Below the pieces are notes generated by a model that worked only from the letters and a program-made list of their open reading frames with translations, did no database searches and was not told where the DNA came from. Of a stretch of DNA of 53,353 bases, positions 13,559 to 20,286 are shown one piece after another; positions within the stretch are counted from its first letter, which is position 1, and every line of letters begins with the position of its first letter. The stretch comes from Candidatus Heimdallarchaeota archaeon (GTDB taxonomy: Archaea > Asgardarchaeota > Heimdallarchaeia > Heimdallarchaeales > Heimdallarchaeaceae): the NCBI GenBank assembly GCA_023132955.1, contig JAGLXK010000279.1, positions 1-53,353 of the forward strand, read 5' to 3'. The translations under genes were made by a program, and so were the position numbers.

Positions 13559-14644
13559 TTAAGCTTGTTTTGGTTTATTATATCCCATTTTATCAATTAT
13601 TGTGTGCAAATAAGAATAAATCATTTGTTTGTCTTTTAACGAAATGTTATACTTATGTCTTTCATAGTCTTTCTCACTTGTAAGATATTCTTCAATTTCA
13701 GGTAAAGCTTCTTCAAAACCTTCGAGATTAAGTTTATCATAAATCTGCTTTATGAAAGTTATAGGATCAGCTATGAAATCTTCATATTTGATTTCAACTA
13801 AATTATGTTTTGGAACTAGTTTTTTGTCTTTGTAATATTTCTCATAGATATCTCTATAAGAATTGAGAATAAACTTATTTAGATCTGGATACCCTTTTTG
13901 TAATCTAAGGAGTTTACCTGTTCTTTCATGCAATCGTTTTGTTGAAAAGAATACCTCATATGGGTCTCTATAAATATGAACAAATTTGGCGTTGGGATAA
14001 AGATCTATAAGAAGGTCAACTTTTGCTGTATCAAATGGACTTTTCAGAATTAGTAATTTGTTCCCTTTTTTCAGATAAAGTTTTTTGATAACATAGTCTG
14101 TATAAAATTTGATTTTGTTTATTTGATTCTGAGATAAGCCTTTAAATAAAGCATATCGACCGTAGAACTCAACATTCAAAGGGAAATAACCCCCCAAGAA
14201 TGGAGACATTGAACACAGATTGGCAATTGCAATCTCATGTTCATGTGGTGAATCTACACCAAATTTAACATCATCTTGAGGTCTAGTTTCTGGTAAAAAC
14301 AAACCAAGTAGCCATTTCATCAGTTTTTCAAAATACAGAAAATGATTGGAGAAGATTGATTCGAACACAGTCATACAATTATGATTGGGGTTTCGAATAA
14401 GTAATTCTTGGAGAAAGGTTGTTCCATTTCTCCAGTGACCTAGAATGAAGAGCGGATCTTTTTCTAATTTTATATTCTTTACTTTACGATTGAAAAGCAA
14501 AGCTTCTATCCAACCAAAAGGAGTGAAAAATACTACAAGTAGAGTGATAAAGAAAATTTGTGGTATTCTTTTTAGAGATAGGTTAAACTGATTCTCAATC
14601 AATAACCTCATCCATGTTCTAAAGTTTGCACCAACAGCAAACAT
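13559..14644 (-). CDS. PAPS-type sulfotransferase family protein (paralogue A)
   Basis: The 5'-phosphosulfate loop is visible as ILGHWRNGTTFLQELL (about residue 70), and the 3'-phosphate segment as HIYRDPYEVFFSTKRLH. YEDFIADP and a C-terminal helix complete the family pattern. An N-terminal hydrophobic stretch (PQIFFITLLVVFFTPFGW) may anchor the protein in the membrane and suggests a lipid or polyprenyl substrate. It lies just downstream of its tandem paralogue at 14692-15774, on the same strand. The start chosen is the ATG giving MFAVGANF; an upstream TTG at 14659 is also open. No PAPS synthesis genes are in the window. Confidence 0.8.
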   Translation of the reverse strand: MFAVGANFRTWMRLLIENQFNLSLKRIPQIFFITLLVVFFTPFGWIEALLFNRKVKNIKLEKDPLFILGHWRNGTTFLQELLIRNPNHNCMTVFESIFSNHFLYFEKLMKWLLGLFLPETRPQDDVKFGVDSPHEHEIAIANLCSMSPFLGGYFPLNVEFYGRYALFKGLSQNQINKIKFYTDYVIKKLYLKKGNKLLILKSPFDTAKVDLLIDLYPNAKFVHIYRDPYEVFFSTKRLHERTGKLLRLQKGYPDLNKFILNSYRDIYEKYYKDKKLVPKHNLVEIKYEDFIADPITFIKQIYDKLNLEGFEEALPEIEEYLTSEKDYERHKYNISLKDKQMIYSYLHTIIDKMGYNKPKQA

Positions 14645-14691
14645 TGTAATTACAACCAAATACTAAGTTACTTTCTAAACCTTATTAAATT

Positions 14692-15774
14692 TTAGATGAA
14701 CGCTTTTTCATATTTCATCTTTTCGAAAATATTTTGCCATCGTGTGAAAATTCTTTTCTTTTCTTCAGGTGGAATGTTGTATTTGCTAGGAGTGTAGCCC
14801 TTATTTTTTTCAATATAATTCTCAATATATGGCTTAGCTTCATTAAATCTTGGTAGTGATAAAGAATCATATATTTTTTCCATTTCATCTACCGGATTTG
14901 CTATGAATTCTTCATATCTAATTTCGATGAAATTTTCTTTAGGTATTAAATCTACTTCTTTGTAGAACTTAGTATACATTCCTTCATATATCTCAAGAAC
15001 AAATTTATCCAGATCTGGATATCCCTCTTGAAGCTGAAAAATAGGAACTAATTTCTGGTGCATTCTTTTTGTTGAGTAGTAAACTTCGTAGGGATTACGA
15101 GTAATATGAATATATTTCGCGTCTGGAAACAGCTCTAACAGGAATCCAACCCGAGCAGTATCAACAGGACTTTTTAGAACTAATCTTTTGTATTTTTTCT
15201 TAACTATCAATTTTTTCATCAAGTATCTAAAACTACTTTTTATTTTCCCAATTTGTTTTTCAGATAATCCCTCAAGAGTAACATACTTGTTGTAAGCATC
15301 CTGGTTATTAGGAAAATATGCTCCGGAATAGGGTGACATAGAGCTTAGGTTAGCGATTGCAAAATCATGTTCACTAGGTAAATCAGAAGTAATTTTCAAG
15401 TCATCTTGAGGTCTTGTTTCGGGAAGAAAAAGATTAAGAAACCATCTTAAAAACGAAGAAGAATAGAGAAAGTGATTAGGAAATACACTCTCAAAAAGTG
15501 CCATGAATTCATAGTCAGGATTACAGTTAAAGAGTTCATGTAGAAATGTTGTTCCTTGACGCCAATGTCCAAGTATGAATATTGGCTGATGTTTCAGTTC
15601 AACTTCACCTAGTTTTCTCCAAACAAGCAATCTTTCAATTATGGCTAGAGGTGTAAAAAGTATAATTATAAAAGTTATTACAAAAACATGAGGAAGTTTT
15701 TTCCAAGAAATATCTAGTTTATTCTCAAACAACAATTTCAACCAAATAAATATGTTAGTCCCAACTGCAAAGAT
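14692..15774 (-). CDS. PAPS-type sulfotransferase family protein (paralogue B), probable ATC start
   Basis: The protein aligns along its whole length with paralogue A: ILGHWRQGTTFLHELF, ETRPQDDLKI, HITRNPYEVYYSTKRMH and RYEEFIANP. The longest frame with a standard start is TTG at 15741, but the homology runs further upstream, as FAVGTNIFIWLKLLFENK. At the exact position where paralogue A has ATG, this gene has ATC (15774-15772), with GGAGGT (15782-15787) seven bases before it. An ATC start, or a recent ATG-to-ATC change, is the best reading. The hydrophobic N-terminal stretch (about residues 30-50) is shared. Confidence 0.78.
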   Translation of the reverse strand: MFAVGTNIFIWLKLLFENKLDISWKKLPHVFVITFIIILFTPLAIIERLLVWRKLGEVELKHQPIFILGHWRQGTTFLHELFNCNPDYEFMALFESVFPNHFLYSSSFLRWFLNLFLPETRPQDDLKITSDLPSEHDFAIANLSSMSPYSGAYFPNNQDAYNKYVTLEGLSEKQIGKIKSSFRYLMKKLIVKKKYKRLVLKSPVDTARVGFLLELFPDAKYIHITRNPYEVYYSTKRMHQKLVPIFQLQEGYPDLDKFVLEIYEGMYTKFYKEVDLIPKENFIEIRYEEFIANPVDEMEKIYDSLSLPRFNEAKPYIENYIEKNKGYTPSKYNIPPEEKKRIFTRWQNIFEKMKYEKAFI

Positions 15775-15787
15775 TTGAATAACCTCC

Positions 15788-16110
15788 TATACAGATGAAT
15801 ATTTGAAATTTCTATATTATGAAAAGTTGTGTGAAACGAAACATTTGCTGAGATGAATCTCAGATTTCATCAAATAAAATACTAAACAAATAAAGAAAAG
15901 ACCTATGAAATTGTGTGTAAATAATTTCTGGTCATTGTACTTAAATTAGGTGGATTAACTTAACGTTTTTTCTAGGTCCATTTCATTCTATCATATTCTT
16001 TATTTCGAAGTTCTTGAAATGTTTTCTGACAATTGAAGACATTTCTTTCATGAATTATAATAATTAATTAAACTCTTAAGATTTTGGCATGAATGGTTGA
16101 ATATATTTGT
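15788..16110. other. Gene-free stretch before the exporter operon
   Basis: No coding frame with homology or a clear start was seen here. The stretch is AT-rich with scattered A and T runs. A TATA-like ATATATTT lies at 16101-16108. It separates the sulfotransferase pair from the ABC exporter operon on the opposite strand. Confidence 0.5.
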
Positions 16111-16211
16111 CGCTACTCTCTTTGGTAGTAGTTGTGAGAAAGATTTATTATTATTGTTACTACTGTCAATGGTAGTAGTAATCGTTTAGTTTACTACTTG
16201 AAGGTGATAAA
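16111..16211 (+). promoter_or_regulatory. Operator array (two TACT-N9-AGTA dyads plus a half-site) and ribosome site
   Basis: Site 1 has TACT at 16114-16117 and AGTA at 16127-16130. Site 2 is a longer perfect dyad, TTACTACT (16157-16164) and AGTAGTAA (16174-16181), around a 9-base spacer. A half-site TTACTACT follows at 16191-16198. Candidate TATA boxes are at 16101-16108 and 16143-16150, so both dyads sit where a bound protein would block initiation. GGTGA at 16203-16207 is the ribosome site for the TTG start at 16212. The TACT...AGTA pattern resembles sites known for TrmB regulators, and a TrmB-like gene closes this operon. Confidence 0.75.
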
Positions 16212-16967
16212 TTGGCTATTGAAAGTGAGTATGTAATTGAAACTCAAGATCTTGTTAAAATATACAAAACAGGTAAAGTTAAGGCAGTTGATGGTCTAAA
16301 TCTTAAAATCAAAAAAGGAGAAATATATGCTTTAATTGGTGCAAATGGTAGTGGAAAAACTACTTCTCTAAATATGATTTCTGGGGCACTCTTTCCTACT
16401 TCAGGGAATATTCGCGTTCTCGGGTATAATGTACCCAAACATCGAAGAATAATCTCAAATTACATTGGAATAGCTCCACAAGATTACTCCATATTCTATG
16501 ATTTAAGTCTAGAAGAGAATGTTAGGTTTTTCTCTAGAATTTATGGTATGACCAAAGCTGAATTTGAACCTCGTTTTAACGAACTTCTTAATATTTTAAG
16601 ATTAGAAGAGAAAAGAAAAGCTCTTGCAAAGAATCTGTCCGGTGGTATGAAAAGAAGAACTAGTATCGCTTGTGCATTAATTCACAATCCAAGAATCGTT
16701 TTCTTTGATGAAGCAACAGTAGGTATAGATCCAGTTCTTAGAACTTTTTTCTGGAAGTATTTTCATTCCCTAAAAGAAGACGGGATAACTTTAGTTATTA
16801 CATCCCATGTAATGGATGAAGCTGAAAGAGCAGATAGGATTGGTTTAATGCGAGGAGGTAAGCTCATTGCAGAAGGTACCCCATCAGAATTGAGGAATAA
16901 ACATAATGCTGATAGTATTGAAGAGATATTCATCAAACTTAGTGAAGGAGTGATTATCGATGAGTAA
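16212..16967 (+). CDS. ABC-2 exporter, ATP-binding subunit
   Basis: The 251-residue subunit has Walker A GANGSGKTT (about 43-51), Q-loop APQDYS, signature LSGGMKRR, Walker B IVFFDEAT and the switch His in ITSHVMDEAERAD. The DrrA/NatA-like sequence points to an exporter of drugs, lipids or ions. It starts with TTG behind a GGTGA site and overlaps the permease gene by eight bases, so the two are translated together. Regulation by the operator array just upstream is likely. Confidence 0.92.
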   Translation: MAIESEYVIETQDLVKIYKTGKVKAVDGLNLKIKKGEIYALIGANGSGKTTSLNMISGALFPTSGNIRVLGYNVPKHRRIISNYIGIAPQDYSIFYDLSLEENVRFFSRIYGMTKAEFEPRFNELLNILRLEEKRKALAKNLSGGMKRRTSIACALIHNPRIVFFDEATVGIDPVLRTFFWKYFHSLKEDGITLVITSHVMDEAERADRIGLMRGGKLIAEGTPSELRNKHNADSIEEIFIKLSEGVIIDE

Positions 16968-18132
16968 GAAGAATGTTGATCTGAAACCGAAGAATCTAAA
17001 CTTTTCTCTCAGAAGAACAATGGCAATAGCTTTTCGGACTATGAATCAATTTCGAAGAGATAGGAGAACTATCGCTCTTATGTCAATCGTTCCCATTGTA
17101 ATTATGCTAATTTTCGGTTTAGCATTCAGTGGGGAAGTTAGAAATGTGCCTGTCATTATTGATAACCAAGATGTGTTATATACTAATCCATTTCCTCCAA
17201 TTAGTTTGCATCTAGGACCAAATATAACAGATAATTTGGTTGCTGATGATGGAGTAGATGTGACTTTTGGAAATTATGATCAAGGAATCGATTCTGTTGA
17301 ACTAGGAGATGTTTATGCAGCTGTACTTATTCCAGCTAACTTCTCTGAACTTGTGGTTCGAATGTTAACAGGAGAGAATGTTACAATTCAACTTTATGTC
17401 TACATTGATGCAACGAAACCTACAATCAGAGCAAGCGTCATGAGTACAATATATGATGCACTCGACAGTGCTGTTGGAGACAGAGGTATAAAACTTGTTC
17501 AGATTCTTGCTCATGATGGAGCTGAATTTACTGGTCTAGATGTCGGTATTCCATCTGTAATAGCATTTGTTATTATTTTCCTCTTAGTGATCGTGGGTAC
17601 AATTACTGTTACAAGAGAAAAAATACAAGGAACACAAGATAGGTTGTATTCTACACCACTTCGATCCTCAGAACGTCTATTAGGCTATGTTATTGGTTTG
17701 TTACTAATTGCAATATTGATGATTTCACTAACACTCATATTTGGTGTACTTGTGTTTGGAGTGAAAGTGCATGGGAATGTGTTTCTTTTAATCTTTGCAG
17801 CTTTGATTTTTGGAATAGCTCATGTTTTTCTTGCTGTATTTCTATCAAATTTCGCTCAGAACGAATTGCAGGCAATACAATTTGCTCCATTGACAGCTCT
17901 TCCAAGCATGGCTCTCGGTGGGATGTTGGTTCCTATAGTCAGTCTCCCAGTATGGTTACAACCTTTATCTTATGTAGTTCCTTTAACATATGGTATCAAT
18001 CTATTTGAAGGTATCATGCTTAAAGGATGGGGATTCAAAGAACTATGGGTAGATTTTACTGTTGTAGCTGGAATGTGTTTACTATTCTTCATACTTGCGG
18101 TTGTAACTGTAAGGAACAGAATGAGAGATTAG
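16960..18132 (+). CDS. ABC-2 exporter, permease subunit
   Basis: The 390-residue protein has one N-terminal membrane helix (LMSIVPIVIMLIFGLAFSG), an outside domain of about 130 residues with VPVIIDNQD and IQLYVYIDATKPT, and five C-terminal helices. This is the ABC2_membrane_3 layout of the NatB/YhgE-like group. The long extracytoplasmic domain probably contacts the exported substrate at the cell surface. It overlaps the ATPase gene and is followed nine bases later by the regulator gene. The substrate cannot be inferred. Confidence 0.9.
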   Translation: MSKKNVDLKPKNLNFSLRRTMAIAFRTMNQFRRDRRTIALMSIVPIVIMLIFGLAFSGEVRNVPVIIDNQDVLYTNPFPPISLHLGPNITDNLVADDGVDVTFGNYDQGIDSVELGDVYAAVLIPANFSELVVRMLTGENVTIQLYVYIDATKPTIRASVMSTIYDALDSAVGDRGIKLVQILAHDGAEFTGLDVGIPSVIAFVIIFLLVIVGTITVTREKIQGTQDRLYSTPLRSSERLLGYVIGLLLIAILMISLTLIFGVLVFGVKVHGNVFLLIFAALIFGIAHVFLAVFLSNFAQNELQAIQFAPLTALPSMALGGMLVPIVSLPVWLQPLSYVVPLTYGINLFEGIMLKGWGFKELWVDFTVVAGMCLLFFILAVVTVRNRMRD

Positions 18133-18141
18133 GTGTGAAAA

Positions 18142-18966
18142 ATGAAAGGGACCAAACCTATCTCTTTTTCTAAAGAAGAAGCAATTAATGCACTGACAAG
18201 TCTTGGTTTAACACTTGGAGAAGCTAAGACATATACAGCTTTAGTTGGAATAGGACCTACATACGCTTCAACAATTGCTCGATTAGCAAAAGTTCCACAA
18301 CCCAAAGTCTATGGTCATCTAGAAAATCTCATTCAACGAACTTTCGTTACTAGACAAGCAAAGGAAGGAGTACCAGATACTTTTACAGCTGTTCCATATG
18401 AGCTAGTAATTGAGTCTCTCGAAGAAGAAGTTACGGAAAAAATCAAAGCTGCAACCAAGTATTTTGAGGGTGTAAAAGATCTGCAAAAAACCAGAGAAGT
18501 TGAAGACCTGTTTTCTTATTTCGAAGGAGATAAAGCAGTTTTTGCTGGTTTAAAAACTGTGATTGGTAAAATTGAGAAAAATGTTATTCTTATAGTGACC
18601 AACACTGTTCATGAGAAAACACTTTCAGAACTACTAAAAGATAGAAAGAAAACAAATCCGAAAATTAAGATTCTTCATCTCGATGTGAAAGAAAATGTGT
18701 TTATGAGAGCTCCTCCCTTTAAACGCTTGGTTAAATCAGATGGGTTTAAAGGATTGATGTCGAATAGACCTTCTATTCTTTATGTTGATGTAGACTTTGA
18801 GAATATGTCCTGTTCATCGATGAATATGATTCTTCCTCAAATAGATGAATTTGGTACAGCTCTTATTAACATAAAACATCCAATCGCTTTACATTTTCAA
18901 ATTCAACTTGTCTCAAGTCTCTTAGAATCATTCGAAACAATAGGTATGAGTATTAAAGAGCTCTAA
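18142..18966 (+). CDS. TrmB-family transcriptional regulator
   Basis: Residues about 10-75 hold the TrmB winged helix (LTSLGLTLGEAKTYTALVGIG, then STIARLAKVPQPKVYGHLENL). A short coiled segment around residue 100 leads to a C-terminal ligand-binding half with FSYFEGDKAVFAGLKTV, LIVTNTVHEKTL and DEFGTALI. It is the last gene of the exporter operon, with its own ribosome site AGGTGTG before ATG. The operator array at the operon start matches a TrmB-type site, so autoregulated control of the exporter in response to a ligand is the likely circuit. Confidence 0.82.
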   Translation: MKGTKPISFSKEEAINALTSLGLTLGEAKTYTALVGIGPTYASTIARLAKVPQPKVYGHLENLIQRTFVTRQAKEGVPDTFTAVPYELVIESLEEEVTEKIKAATKYFEGVKDLQKTREVEDLFSYFEGDKAVFAGLKTVIGKIEKNVILIVTNTVHEKTLSELLKDRKKTNPKIKILHLDVKENVFMRAPPFKRLVKSDGFKGLMSNRPSILYVDVDFENMSCSSMNMILPQIDEFGTALINIKHPIALHFQIQLVSSLLESFETIGMSIKEL

Positions 18967-18985
18967 TCGAGATACAGCTATAAAT

Positions 18986-19003
18986 CCCTTTTTTTTTCTT
19001 TAT
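18986..19003 (+). terminator. T-tract after the exporter operon
   Basis: A CCC followed by a run of nine T's and then CTTT lies about 20 bases after the TrmB-like stop codon. This suits archaeal U-rich termination. No strong hairpin was seen. Confidence 0.45.
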
Positions 19004-19006
19004 TTA

Positions 19007-19126
19007 ATGTCTCATAAAGAAGCTAGTAAGCTAACTGGTTCTGAAGTAATAGTAGAGTATCTGATAAAAGGAGGTATTCCGTATATTTTTGGTATTAACG
19101 GTTGGGCAGTTATGAACCATCAGTAG
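19007..19126 (+). pseudogene. N-terminal remnant of a thiamine-diphosphate enzyme (acetolactate synthase-like)
   Basis: ATG at 19007 opens a 39-codon frame that includes KLTGSEVIVEYLIKGGIPYIFGING and then ends quickly at TAG. This is the conserved start of TPP-dependent enzymes such as acetolactate synthase, which continue for about 550 residues. Homology stops within the FGINGWA segment, where a transporter fragment begins in another frame. The fragment cannot be functional as an enzyme. Confidence 0.7.
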
Positions 19127-19269
19127 TAACGCCACAAATAATTTTTGGGCTTAAATCTCTTATGTCACTCATTCCTGCAAGTGCACTAATTATAGGAATA
19201 GTTATCCTGTTGTTCTATCCACTAAATAGAAAAGAAGTGAGTAAATTACAAGAAAAATTAAAAACGTAA
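19099..19269 (+). pseudogene. C-terminal remnant of a GPH-family (MelB-like) sugar transporter
   Basis: A frame open from 19099 encodes SYEPSVVTPQIIFGLKSLM and then a membrane helix SLIPASALIIGIVILLFYPL, with a KEVSKLQEKLKT tail and TAA. This matches the last helix and tail of glycoside-pentoside-hexuronide transporters. Nearly all of the transporter is missing. It overlaps the TPP-enzyme remnant by 28 bases in another frame, so the breakpoint of a deletion lies near 19095-19111. Confidence 0.6.
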
Positions 19270-19299
19270 GGAAAAATCCTTACATATCTTTGTTATTAA

Positions 19300-20286
19300 C
19301 TAATATTGTTTGGTTTTTAAGCCTTGAATATATTCTGCTGCACTAAGAGCTGCAATTGTGCCTAAACCTGTTGATGTAGTAATCTGCCTCATAAGTGGAT
19401 TAACTATTTTGTTTGTCACATCACCAGCAGAAAACACTCCAGCAATGTTTGTGAGACAGCCATCATCAATCTTGATTAAACCATCTTCGATTTCACATCC
19501 TAGAGATTCTGCTAGTTCGATGTTTGGGATAGCTCCAATTTCAGCGAAAATACCATCAACTTTCAGAGAAGTTCCATCACTAAAGAGAACTTCTTCTACT
19601 GTGTTAGTACCTTTAATTTCAGTGACTTGCTTTTTGTAAAGAATAGCTATATTACTACGTTCTTTTGCTCTGTCAATATAGATTTTTTCACATTTAAGAT
19701 AATCTGATCTTGAAACCCAGTAAGTCATCTTAGCTCCAACATCACTTAGAGCTAATGTTCCTGTTGCTGCTGCATCCCCTGACCCAACTACGATAACAGT
19801 TTTTTCTTTAAAGAAAGCTGCATCACATGTAGCACAGTAAGAAACACCTTTACCGATAAACTCCTTCTCTCCAGGTACTCCTAGTTCTCTGTGCCTACCA
19901 CCTGTTGCAAGAACCAGGGCTTTAATGATAAAATCTCCCATATCACTCTTAATAAAGAATTTGCCGTCCTCTAGTTTTTCTGCAGTTGAAACTTCTCCAT
20001 AGACTATTTTTGTACCAAATTTTTCAGCTTGAGCCCTCATCTTATCAGCAAGTTCAAGCCCTGTAATCATTTCGAACCCAGGATAATTTTCTATTTCCAT
20101 AGCTAAACCCATTTGTCCTCCATAATCTAGACCTACTTCAACTACTGACAAACCTGCTCTAGATGCATAGAGTGCTGCAGTTAAACCTGCAGGACCAAGT
20201 CCAATTATACCTAAATCTTTTTCAACAGGACCTTCTCTCTGTTCTTCCTCTTCTTCTAAATCTTCTGTAGGACCTAATAGTAACAT
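19300..20286 (-). CDS. Thioredoxin reductase-like flavoprotein lacking the NADPH motif
   Basis: The FAD motif IIGLGPAGLTAALYASRAG is followed by the redox pair CATCDAAF (about 150-153) and the C-terminal GVFSAGDV FAD segment, as in TrxB. In the NADPH domain, the usual HRRxxxR is replaced by WVSRSDYL and the nucleotide loop is GSGDAAATG. The electron donor may therefore not be NADPH; ferredoxin- or F420-linked types are known in archaea. An unusual N-terminal extension of about 20 residues is very acidic (EDLEEEEEQ). The start is firm: GGTGAGG sits four bases before ATG. It probably reduces thioredoxin or a similar protein in the cytosol. Confidence 0.85.
   Translation of the reverse strand: MLLLGPTEDLEEEEEQREGPVEKDLGIIGLGPAGLTAALYASRAGLSVVEVGLDYGGQMGLAMEIENYPGFEMITGLELADKMRAQAEKFGTKIVYGEVSTAEKLEDGKFFIKSDMGDFIIKALVLATGGRHRELGVPGEKEFIGKGVSYCATCDAAFFKEKTVIVVGSGDAAATGTLALSDVGAKMTYWVSRSDYLKCEKIYIDRAKERSNIAILYKKQVTEIKGTNTVEEVLFSDGTSLKVDGIFAEIGAIPNIELAESLGCEIEDGLIKIDDGCLTNIAGVFSAGDVTNKIVNPLMRQITTSTGLGTIAALSAAEYIQGLKTKQY

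Follow-up and report, generated by a model that had tools for sequence, protein, structure and literature searches.

Predicted TrmB/TrmBL2-like autoregulator and palindromic operators at an ABC-2 exporter operon of a Candidatus Heimdallarchaeota archaeon

The window analyzed here (the whole stretch of DNA, 53,353 nucleotides) is contig C200 of the 3.58-Mb draft genome of a Candidatus Heimdallarchaeota archaeon. The operon of interest consists of three genes on the forward strand: an ABC transporter ATPase gene (bp 16212-16967, 251 aa; Pfam ABC_tran, 5.3e-31), an ABC-2 type exporter permease gene (bp 16960-18132, 390 aa; Pfam ABC2_membrane_3, 8.5e-38) that overlaps the first by 8 bases, and a TrmB/TrmBL2-like regulator gene (bp 18142-18966, 274 aa) that starts 9 bases past the permease stop. 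The last assignment is based on a Pfam TrmB match (1e-13), on orthologues that also lie next to the permease and on a TrmBL2-like structural model, and it bears out the preliminary description of this DNA, which had placed a TrmB-type regulator at the end of the operon. The ATPase gene begins with a TTG codon preceded by the ribosome-site motif AGGTGATA (bp 16202-16209, forward strand; assigned from sequence), and GGTGA was found ahead of the start codon in 13 of 16 promoters inspected (counted by eye, with that of the window included). DrrAB-type ABC-2 drug exporters likewise have a separate ATPase and ABC-2 permease, and drrA is the top NCBIfam match of the ATPase, but the pair scores below both curated cut-offs (228.7 bits against 312.45 for drrA and 42.7 against 223.05 for drrB) and thus falls outside DrrAB membership.

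Two adjacent opposite-strand genes with similar sequences precede the operon (bp 13559-14659 and 14692-15741). The second encodes a sulfotransferase according to Pfam, and the first looks like its duplicate by eye. The intergenic stretch at the sulfotransferase gene start (bp 15742-15889) is 90-94% identical in the related genomes G008, G011 and G012 (loci L089, L090 and L087), and the DNA from there to the operators gave no blastn match; the operators form a separate conserved island. A search of bp 15700-16300 for RNA elements gave no Rfam family at or above its gathering score. On the other side, a hairpin with T following it on each strand (bp 19264-19285) lies between the operon and a convergent reductase gene; two terminator-like sites were found in bp 18900-19400, compared to a shuffle mean of 0.1. 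Two gene remnants directly past the operon (bp 19007-19102 and 19111-19263) look like a deletion scar. The first resembles, at 59% identity, the first 32 codons of the gene that follows a regulator-less operon at locus L064, where the counterpart frame is open for 588 codons up to the locus end and presumably encodes a thiamine-diphosphate enzyme. The second is the tail of a transporter-like gene, with 53% identity over 51 residues to a 489-aa ORF of locus L066 that we take to be an MFS protein.

Upstream of the ATPase gene are two TACT-N9-AGTA dyads (bp 16114-16130 and 16161-16177) which, as the preliminary description reported, have the same 9-base spacer and centres (bp 16122 and 16169) that are 47 bp, or 4.48 helical turns, apart. 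Two features had been missed: the dyads form the inner part of a palindrome that extends over 21 bp, ACTACT-nYC-nnn-GRn-AGTAGT, and they bracket a TATA-like box. The upstream operator, GCTACT-CTCTTTGGT-AGTAGT (bp 16112-16132), matches the long form ACTACT-N9-AGTAGT at 11/12 and is centred 22 bp before the start of this box. The downstream operator, TTACTACT-GTCAATGGT-AGTAGTAA (bp 16157-16181), contains a 12/12 match (bp 16159-16179) and is centred 25 bp after the box start, at the expected transcription start. Between the dyads lies a putative BRE/TATA-like element, GAAAGA-TTTATTA (bp 16138-16150, forward strand), assigned by resemblance, in which TTTATTA starts at bp 16144. The half-site that had been noted beside the ribosome site does exist (ACTACT, bp 16193-16198, forward strand, adjoining the ribosome-site motif GGTGAT), but its place is not conserved: inspection by eye of the 15 other promoters showed no ACTACT at the corresponding place. 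In the 53-kb window, the bare TACT-N9-AGTA motif is only marginally above chance (four matches compared to a shuffle mean of 1.16, with 4 of 100 shuffles reaching four). The long form at the promoter is beyond chance, a 12/12 match in the 170-nt upstream region having been reached by 0 of 300 dinucleotide shuffles, and an N8 or N9 site scoring 11/12 or better was found nowhere else in the window.

Conservation of these sites was assessed at 16 promoters of orthologous operons. Thirteen of these operons carry the regulator in cis, ten within the genus (G000, G001, G002, G004, G005, G007, G008, G011, G012 and G015) and three in another family of the same order (G024, G028 and G030), while three lack it (G003, G014 and G017). 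Promoters at contig ends were left out (G016, G018, G019 and G021), as was that of G006, whose ATPase gene is cut by a contig end. All 13 regulator-bearing promoters have a site scoring 11/12 or better, whereas a lack of conservation upstream of orthologous operons had been named beforehand as the outcome that would speak against the dyads. In 11 of the 13, such a site with N9 was found directly, and 0 or 1 of 300 shuffles was as good in each case. For G024 and G030, the initial scores of 9 and 8 were due to a region that stopped at the homologous start codon. After the start had been shifted, the scores are 11/12 (N9) and 12/12 (N8), respectively, and both sites end two bases before the ATG. 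The regulators of the other 12 operons range from 61% down to 30% identity to that of the window, so the operator is retained even where much of the protein sequence has diverged. The regulator match of G030 covers a short stretch (9-151, with one stop) and may reflect a broken gene or a faulty assembly. As G008, G011 and G012, G004 and G007, and G002 and G015 are close kin, these promoters represent fewer than 13 independent cases.

Among the 21 genomes of the genus, 13 have a regulator orthologue (E-value ≤ 1e-60), and the permease adjoins it in 12 of these; the exception is G018, whose contig begins within the regulator gene. Four genomes have the exporter without the regulator (G003, G006, G014 and G017) and four have neither (G009, G010, G013 and G020), although single absences carry little weight because the genomes are 78-92% complete. 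In named public records, the closest regulators are those of Candidatus Heimdallarchaeota MAGs (L096-L106). Outside the order, 41 named loci whose regulators are all distant (L107-L147) yielded no permease matches and three distant ATPase matches (E-value ≤ 1e-6), and no site at these three loci reaches 11/12.

The internal structure of the operator was derived from 14 N9 sites, without that of G030, which is an N8 site. Counting from the centre, positions 5 to 8 do not vary on either side. Within the spacer, position +2 is G in 13/14 and position +3 is a purine in 14/14, while the symmetric positions on the left are C in 9/14 and a pyrimidine in 12/14. Complementary pairs within the spacer number 27 of 56, compared to a shuffled mean of 15.5, and only 1 of 2000 shuffles scored as high. 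With a symmetric spacer between these invariant positions, the operator can be described as the 21-bp palindrome given above.

The positions of the dyads relative to the promoter are also recurrent. In distances worked out by hand from TATA-like boxes that were partly chosen by eye (wholly so for G015), the upstream dyad, present in six promoters (G000, G001, G005, G008, G011 and G012), is in each of them centred 21-22 bp before the box start. The downstream dyad, present in nine of the regulator-bearing promoters, has its centre 23-25 bp past the box start in seven (G000, G001, G002, G004, G007, G015 and G028). The two exceptions are G024, at +15, and G030, which has no clear TATA-like box. 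G000 and G001 alone have two full dyads, with centres 47 bp and 46 bp (4.38 turns) apart, respectively. The remaining 11 of the 13 regulator-bearing promoters have a single full dyad, either upstream (G005, G008, G011 and G012) or downstream (G002, G004, G007, G015, G028, G024 and G030). Spacings of 47 and 46 bp, about 4.4-4.5 turns, put the dyad centres on opposite faces of B-DNA. The preliminary description had proposed a self-regulated export module with cooperative binding on one DNA face; a self-regulated export operon is still predicted, but same-face cooperativity is not supported by the spacing of 4.48 turns, and a single full dyad is the rule among relatives. The spacing between dyads is explained by the promoter geometry.

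The regulator contains a TrmB winged-helix domain (PF01978, 51.3 bits compared to a cut-off of 25.6), which is its sole Pfam match at E ≤ 0.001, and profile searches match it to 3qph and TrmBL2. In alignment A1, four distant paralogues (L022, L023, L025 and L026) are included and counted in the invariant columns. The four NCBIfam equivalogs that gave a match all stayed far below their thresholds, with bits and cut-offs of 33.9/600 for TrmB, 46.6/650 for TrmBL1, 25/530 for TrmBL2 and 24.1/500 for the haloarchaeal TrmB. A predicted structure (pLDDT 81.4, pTM 0.53) found its best whole-chain match in TrmBL2 (5bqt; Z 13.7, 224 of 274 residues), and the regulator as modelled is a TrmBL2-like two-domain fold. 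The rmsd of this match, 16.4, probably reflects two domains that are turned differently. Matches to TrmB were weaker in Z (3qph, 10.4; 2f5t, 10.0 for residues 123-273) and stop at TrmB residue 244, by which point residue 273 of the 274 in the model has been reached. The C-terminal sugar-binding part of sugar-sensing TrmB (sensu stricto) is therefore missing from the 274-aa protein. This part has residues near N305 and G320 of Pyrococcus furiosus TrmB, and near E326 as well (the last from passages of PMC4158304). With the sugar-contact part missing, a sugar effector is unlikely.

Comparison with characterized members of the family shows both likenesses and differences. TrmBL2 chromatin proteins bind DNA genome-wide and largely independently of sequence, whereas the window has a conserved palindrome at one operon, which, to judge from the sites themselves, speaks against this mode of binding. 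The structures in question, from Thermococcales (5bqt, 5box, 5bpd and 5bpi), are described as chromatin proteins in their PDB titles; they are also similar in length to the regulator. Arms of the TACT...AGTA type, which the preliminary description had named for known TrmB sites, are indeed published for some TrmB proteins, while other members differ (passages of PMC4158304). The predicted operator, with such arms at the BRE/TATA or start site, would be in keeping with the TrmB superfamily. According to the same passages, TrmB of Thermococcus litoralis and P. furiosus acts on a trehalose/maltose ABC operon through the operator TACT-N3-AGTA and represses by preventing the recruitment of RNA polymerase (PMC4158304). 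Like the system described here, it is a winged-helix regulator encoded with an ABC transporter, with a TACT...AGTA site at the core promoter. It differs, as far as those passages go, in serving a sugar importer, in its sugar effectors and in its N3 spacer, the window having an ABC-2 exporter, N9 and longer arms. TrmB of Halobacterium salinarum (VNG1451C) recognizes TACT-N7-8-GAGTA and binds many metabolic promoters (passages of PMC4158304). Its TACT-to-AGTA distance is nearly equal (N8 plus G gives N9), but only one site-bearing promoter was found in the draft genome of the window, and the base before AGTA, G in the VNG1451C motif as given there, is T in 10 of the 14 Heimdallarchaeota sites and G in one.

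At 13 of 13 operons, the regulator gene lies in the operon and a predicted operator lies at its promoter, the arrangement of an autoregulated TrmB-type ABC operon as far as can be read from sequence. We consider it quite probable that a TrmB/TrmBL2-like autoregulator, lacking the sugar-contact part, acts through operators on both sides of the core promoter to control the ABC-2 exporter encoded with it. A homodimer of the regulator would bind the 21-bp palindrome. The upstream operator would stop some 11 bases short of the TATA-like box, beside the BRE, and the downstream operator would cover the expected transcription start; from these positions, a bound protein would block TBP/TFB and RNA polymerase. 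A dimer on either or both operators would thus repress the exporter operon along with its own gene, until a ligand, perhaps the exported compound, releases it. We infer that the operon's own regulator is the binder, that it binds as a dimer, that a ligand releases it and that the direction of control is likely to be repression.

Repression from every site fits some relatives poorly. In the TrmB family, sites at or below the BRE/TATA repress and sites above it activate (passages of PMC4158304, PMC9426492 and PMC10817205). As published sites upstream of the BRE/TATA mostly activate, at least in these passages, simple repression is a poor fit at G005, G008, G011 and G012, which have only an upstream full dyad. 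The same regulator might then exert dual-mode control, activating from the upstream dyad and repressing from the downstream one, with the sign depending on which dyad was kept, and the division of the relatives into promoters with both dyads, the upstream full dyad only or the downstream one only agrees with this. The upstream dyads, however, end 10-11 bases before the TATA-like box, beside the BRE, and haloarchaeal TrmB sites that overlap the BRE are repressive (passages of PMC10817205). Furthermore, AGTAGT half-sites occur downstream of the box in G008 and G011 (only GTAGTA in G012), so these may not be purely upstream promoters. We regard dual-mode control as unlikely, if the best of the alternatives. 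Since relatives keep the upstream dyad, the downstream dyad or both, a change of sign between species is possible; that the sign of exporter regulation was flipped between close relatives by gain or loss of one palindrome, at two recurrent positions bracketing the TATA-like box, is a proposal to which we give a low probability.

A further alternative is that the dyads serve a different, trans-acting regulator (TrmB-type or winged-helix), while the operon's own regulator binds elsewhere. In its favour, three operons without the regulator (G003, G014 and G017) retain altered, partly matching sites and so do not amount to a clean natural knock-out. G003 has a 10/12 site with N9 at the place of the downstream dyad and G014 an 11/12 site with N9 within ACT/AGT repeats, and in both cases 0 of 300 shuffles were as good. 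G017 has only 7/12 with N9 (298 of 300 shuffles were as good) and 11/12 with N8 (2 of 300 over spacers 6-10). These retained sites fit either recent loss of the regulator with drift or, alternatively, use by another DNA-binding protein. They count against autoregulation in that another such protein could use them. Three findings count against a trans-acting regulator. First, every promoter examined with a regulator in cis has a site. Second, sites with TACT...AGTA arms have been published for TrmB proteins (passages of PMC4158304). Third, a trans-acting regulator with several targets would be expected to have sites elsewhere, and in the draft genome all further N9 sites with up to one mismatch lie within ORFs. 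Based on these findings, we judge a trans-acting regulator to be quite improbable.

Two other observations concern the regulator-less operons. At L088 (G014) and L093 (G017), the ACT/AGT triplets upstream of the ATPase gene are rearranged into ACTAGTAGTAGT-like runs, which suggests that operators may change through triplet slippage. At L064, L065 and L066, the exporters without a regulator adjoin a 438-aa gene, which we take to encode a tryptophan-synthase-beta-like enzyme, and not sulfotransferases as in the window; the operon surroundings have therefore changed too.

Motif counts across genomes are low. In the draft genome, bare TACT-N9-AGTA has 74 matches compared to 161 for a reversed-pattern control, and the long form with N9 and at most one mismatch has 10 sites compared to 30. 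Two of these 10 are the window operators and the other eight are all inside ORFs (threshold of at least 80 codons, the shortest having 95). Two of the eight are less clear: the L152 site is in the 95-codon ORF and a 140-codon ORF starts 192 bases on, and the L155 site has an ORF start 196 bases on. The genome scan that had been proposed to find a TACT-N9-AGTA regulon thus gave no enrichment of the bare motif, and for long-form N9 sites with up to one mismatch a wider regulon is not supported. In the 21 genomes of the genus, exact ACTACT-N9-AGTAGT occurs 10 times compared to 38 for the control (hand-summed), and seven of the 10 matches, in six genomes (G000, G001 twice, G004, G005, G007 and G015), are directly before the exporter ATPase gene. 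With long-form totals below the reversed control, the evidence for the operator lies in location, not in number. The idea that the dyads are chance matches or functionless low-complexity ACT/AGT repeats draws on these counts and on the repeated triplets of some relatives, but can practically be dismissed given sites at 13/13 regulator-bearing promoters, their recurrent positions, the symmetric spacer and the seven of 10 exact genus matches at one gene.

A limited search of open-licence papers returned no description of TrmB-type control of an ABC-2 exporter or of this operator. The kind of switch is already known; what is new is that the target is an exporter, that the effector domain lacks the sugar-contact part, that the palindrome is longer and that the operators bracket the core promoter. 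The autoregulator proposed here and its operator make up a precise predicted pair in an Asgard lineage that has not been cultured, and comparison with relatives has defined each base of the operator. With this pair, TrmB-type control would reach beyond sugar uptake and metabolism and include export. The variation between one and two dyads provides a natural series on the way in which the sign of control at an archaeal promoter depends on where the operator lies.
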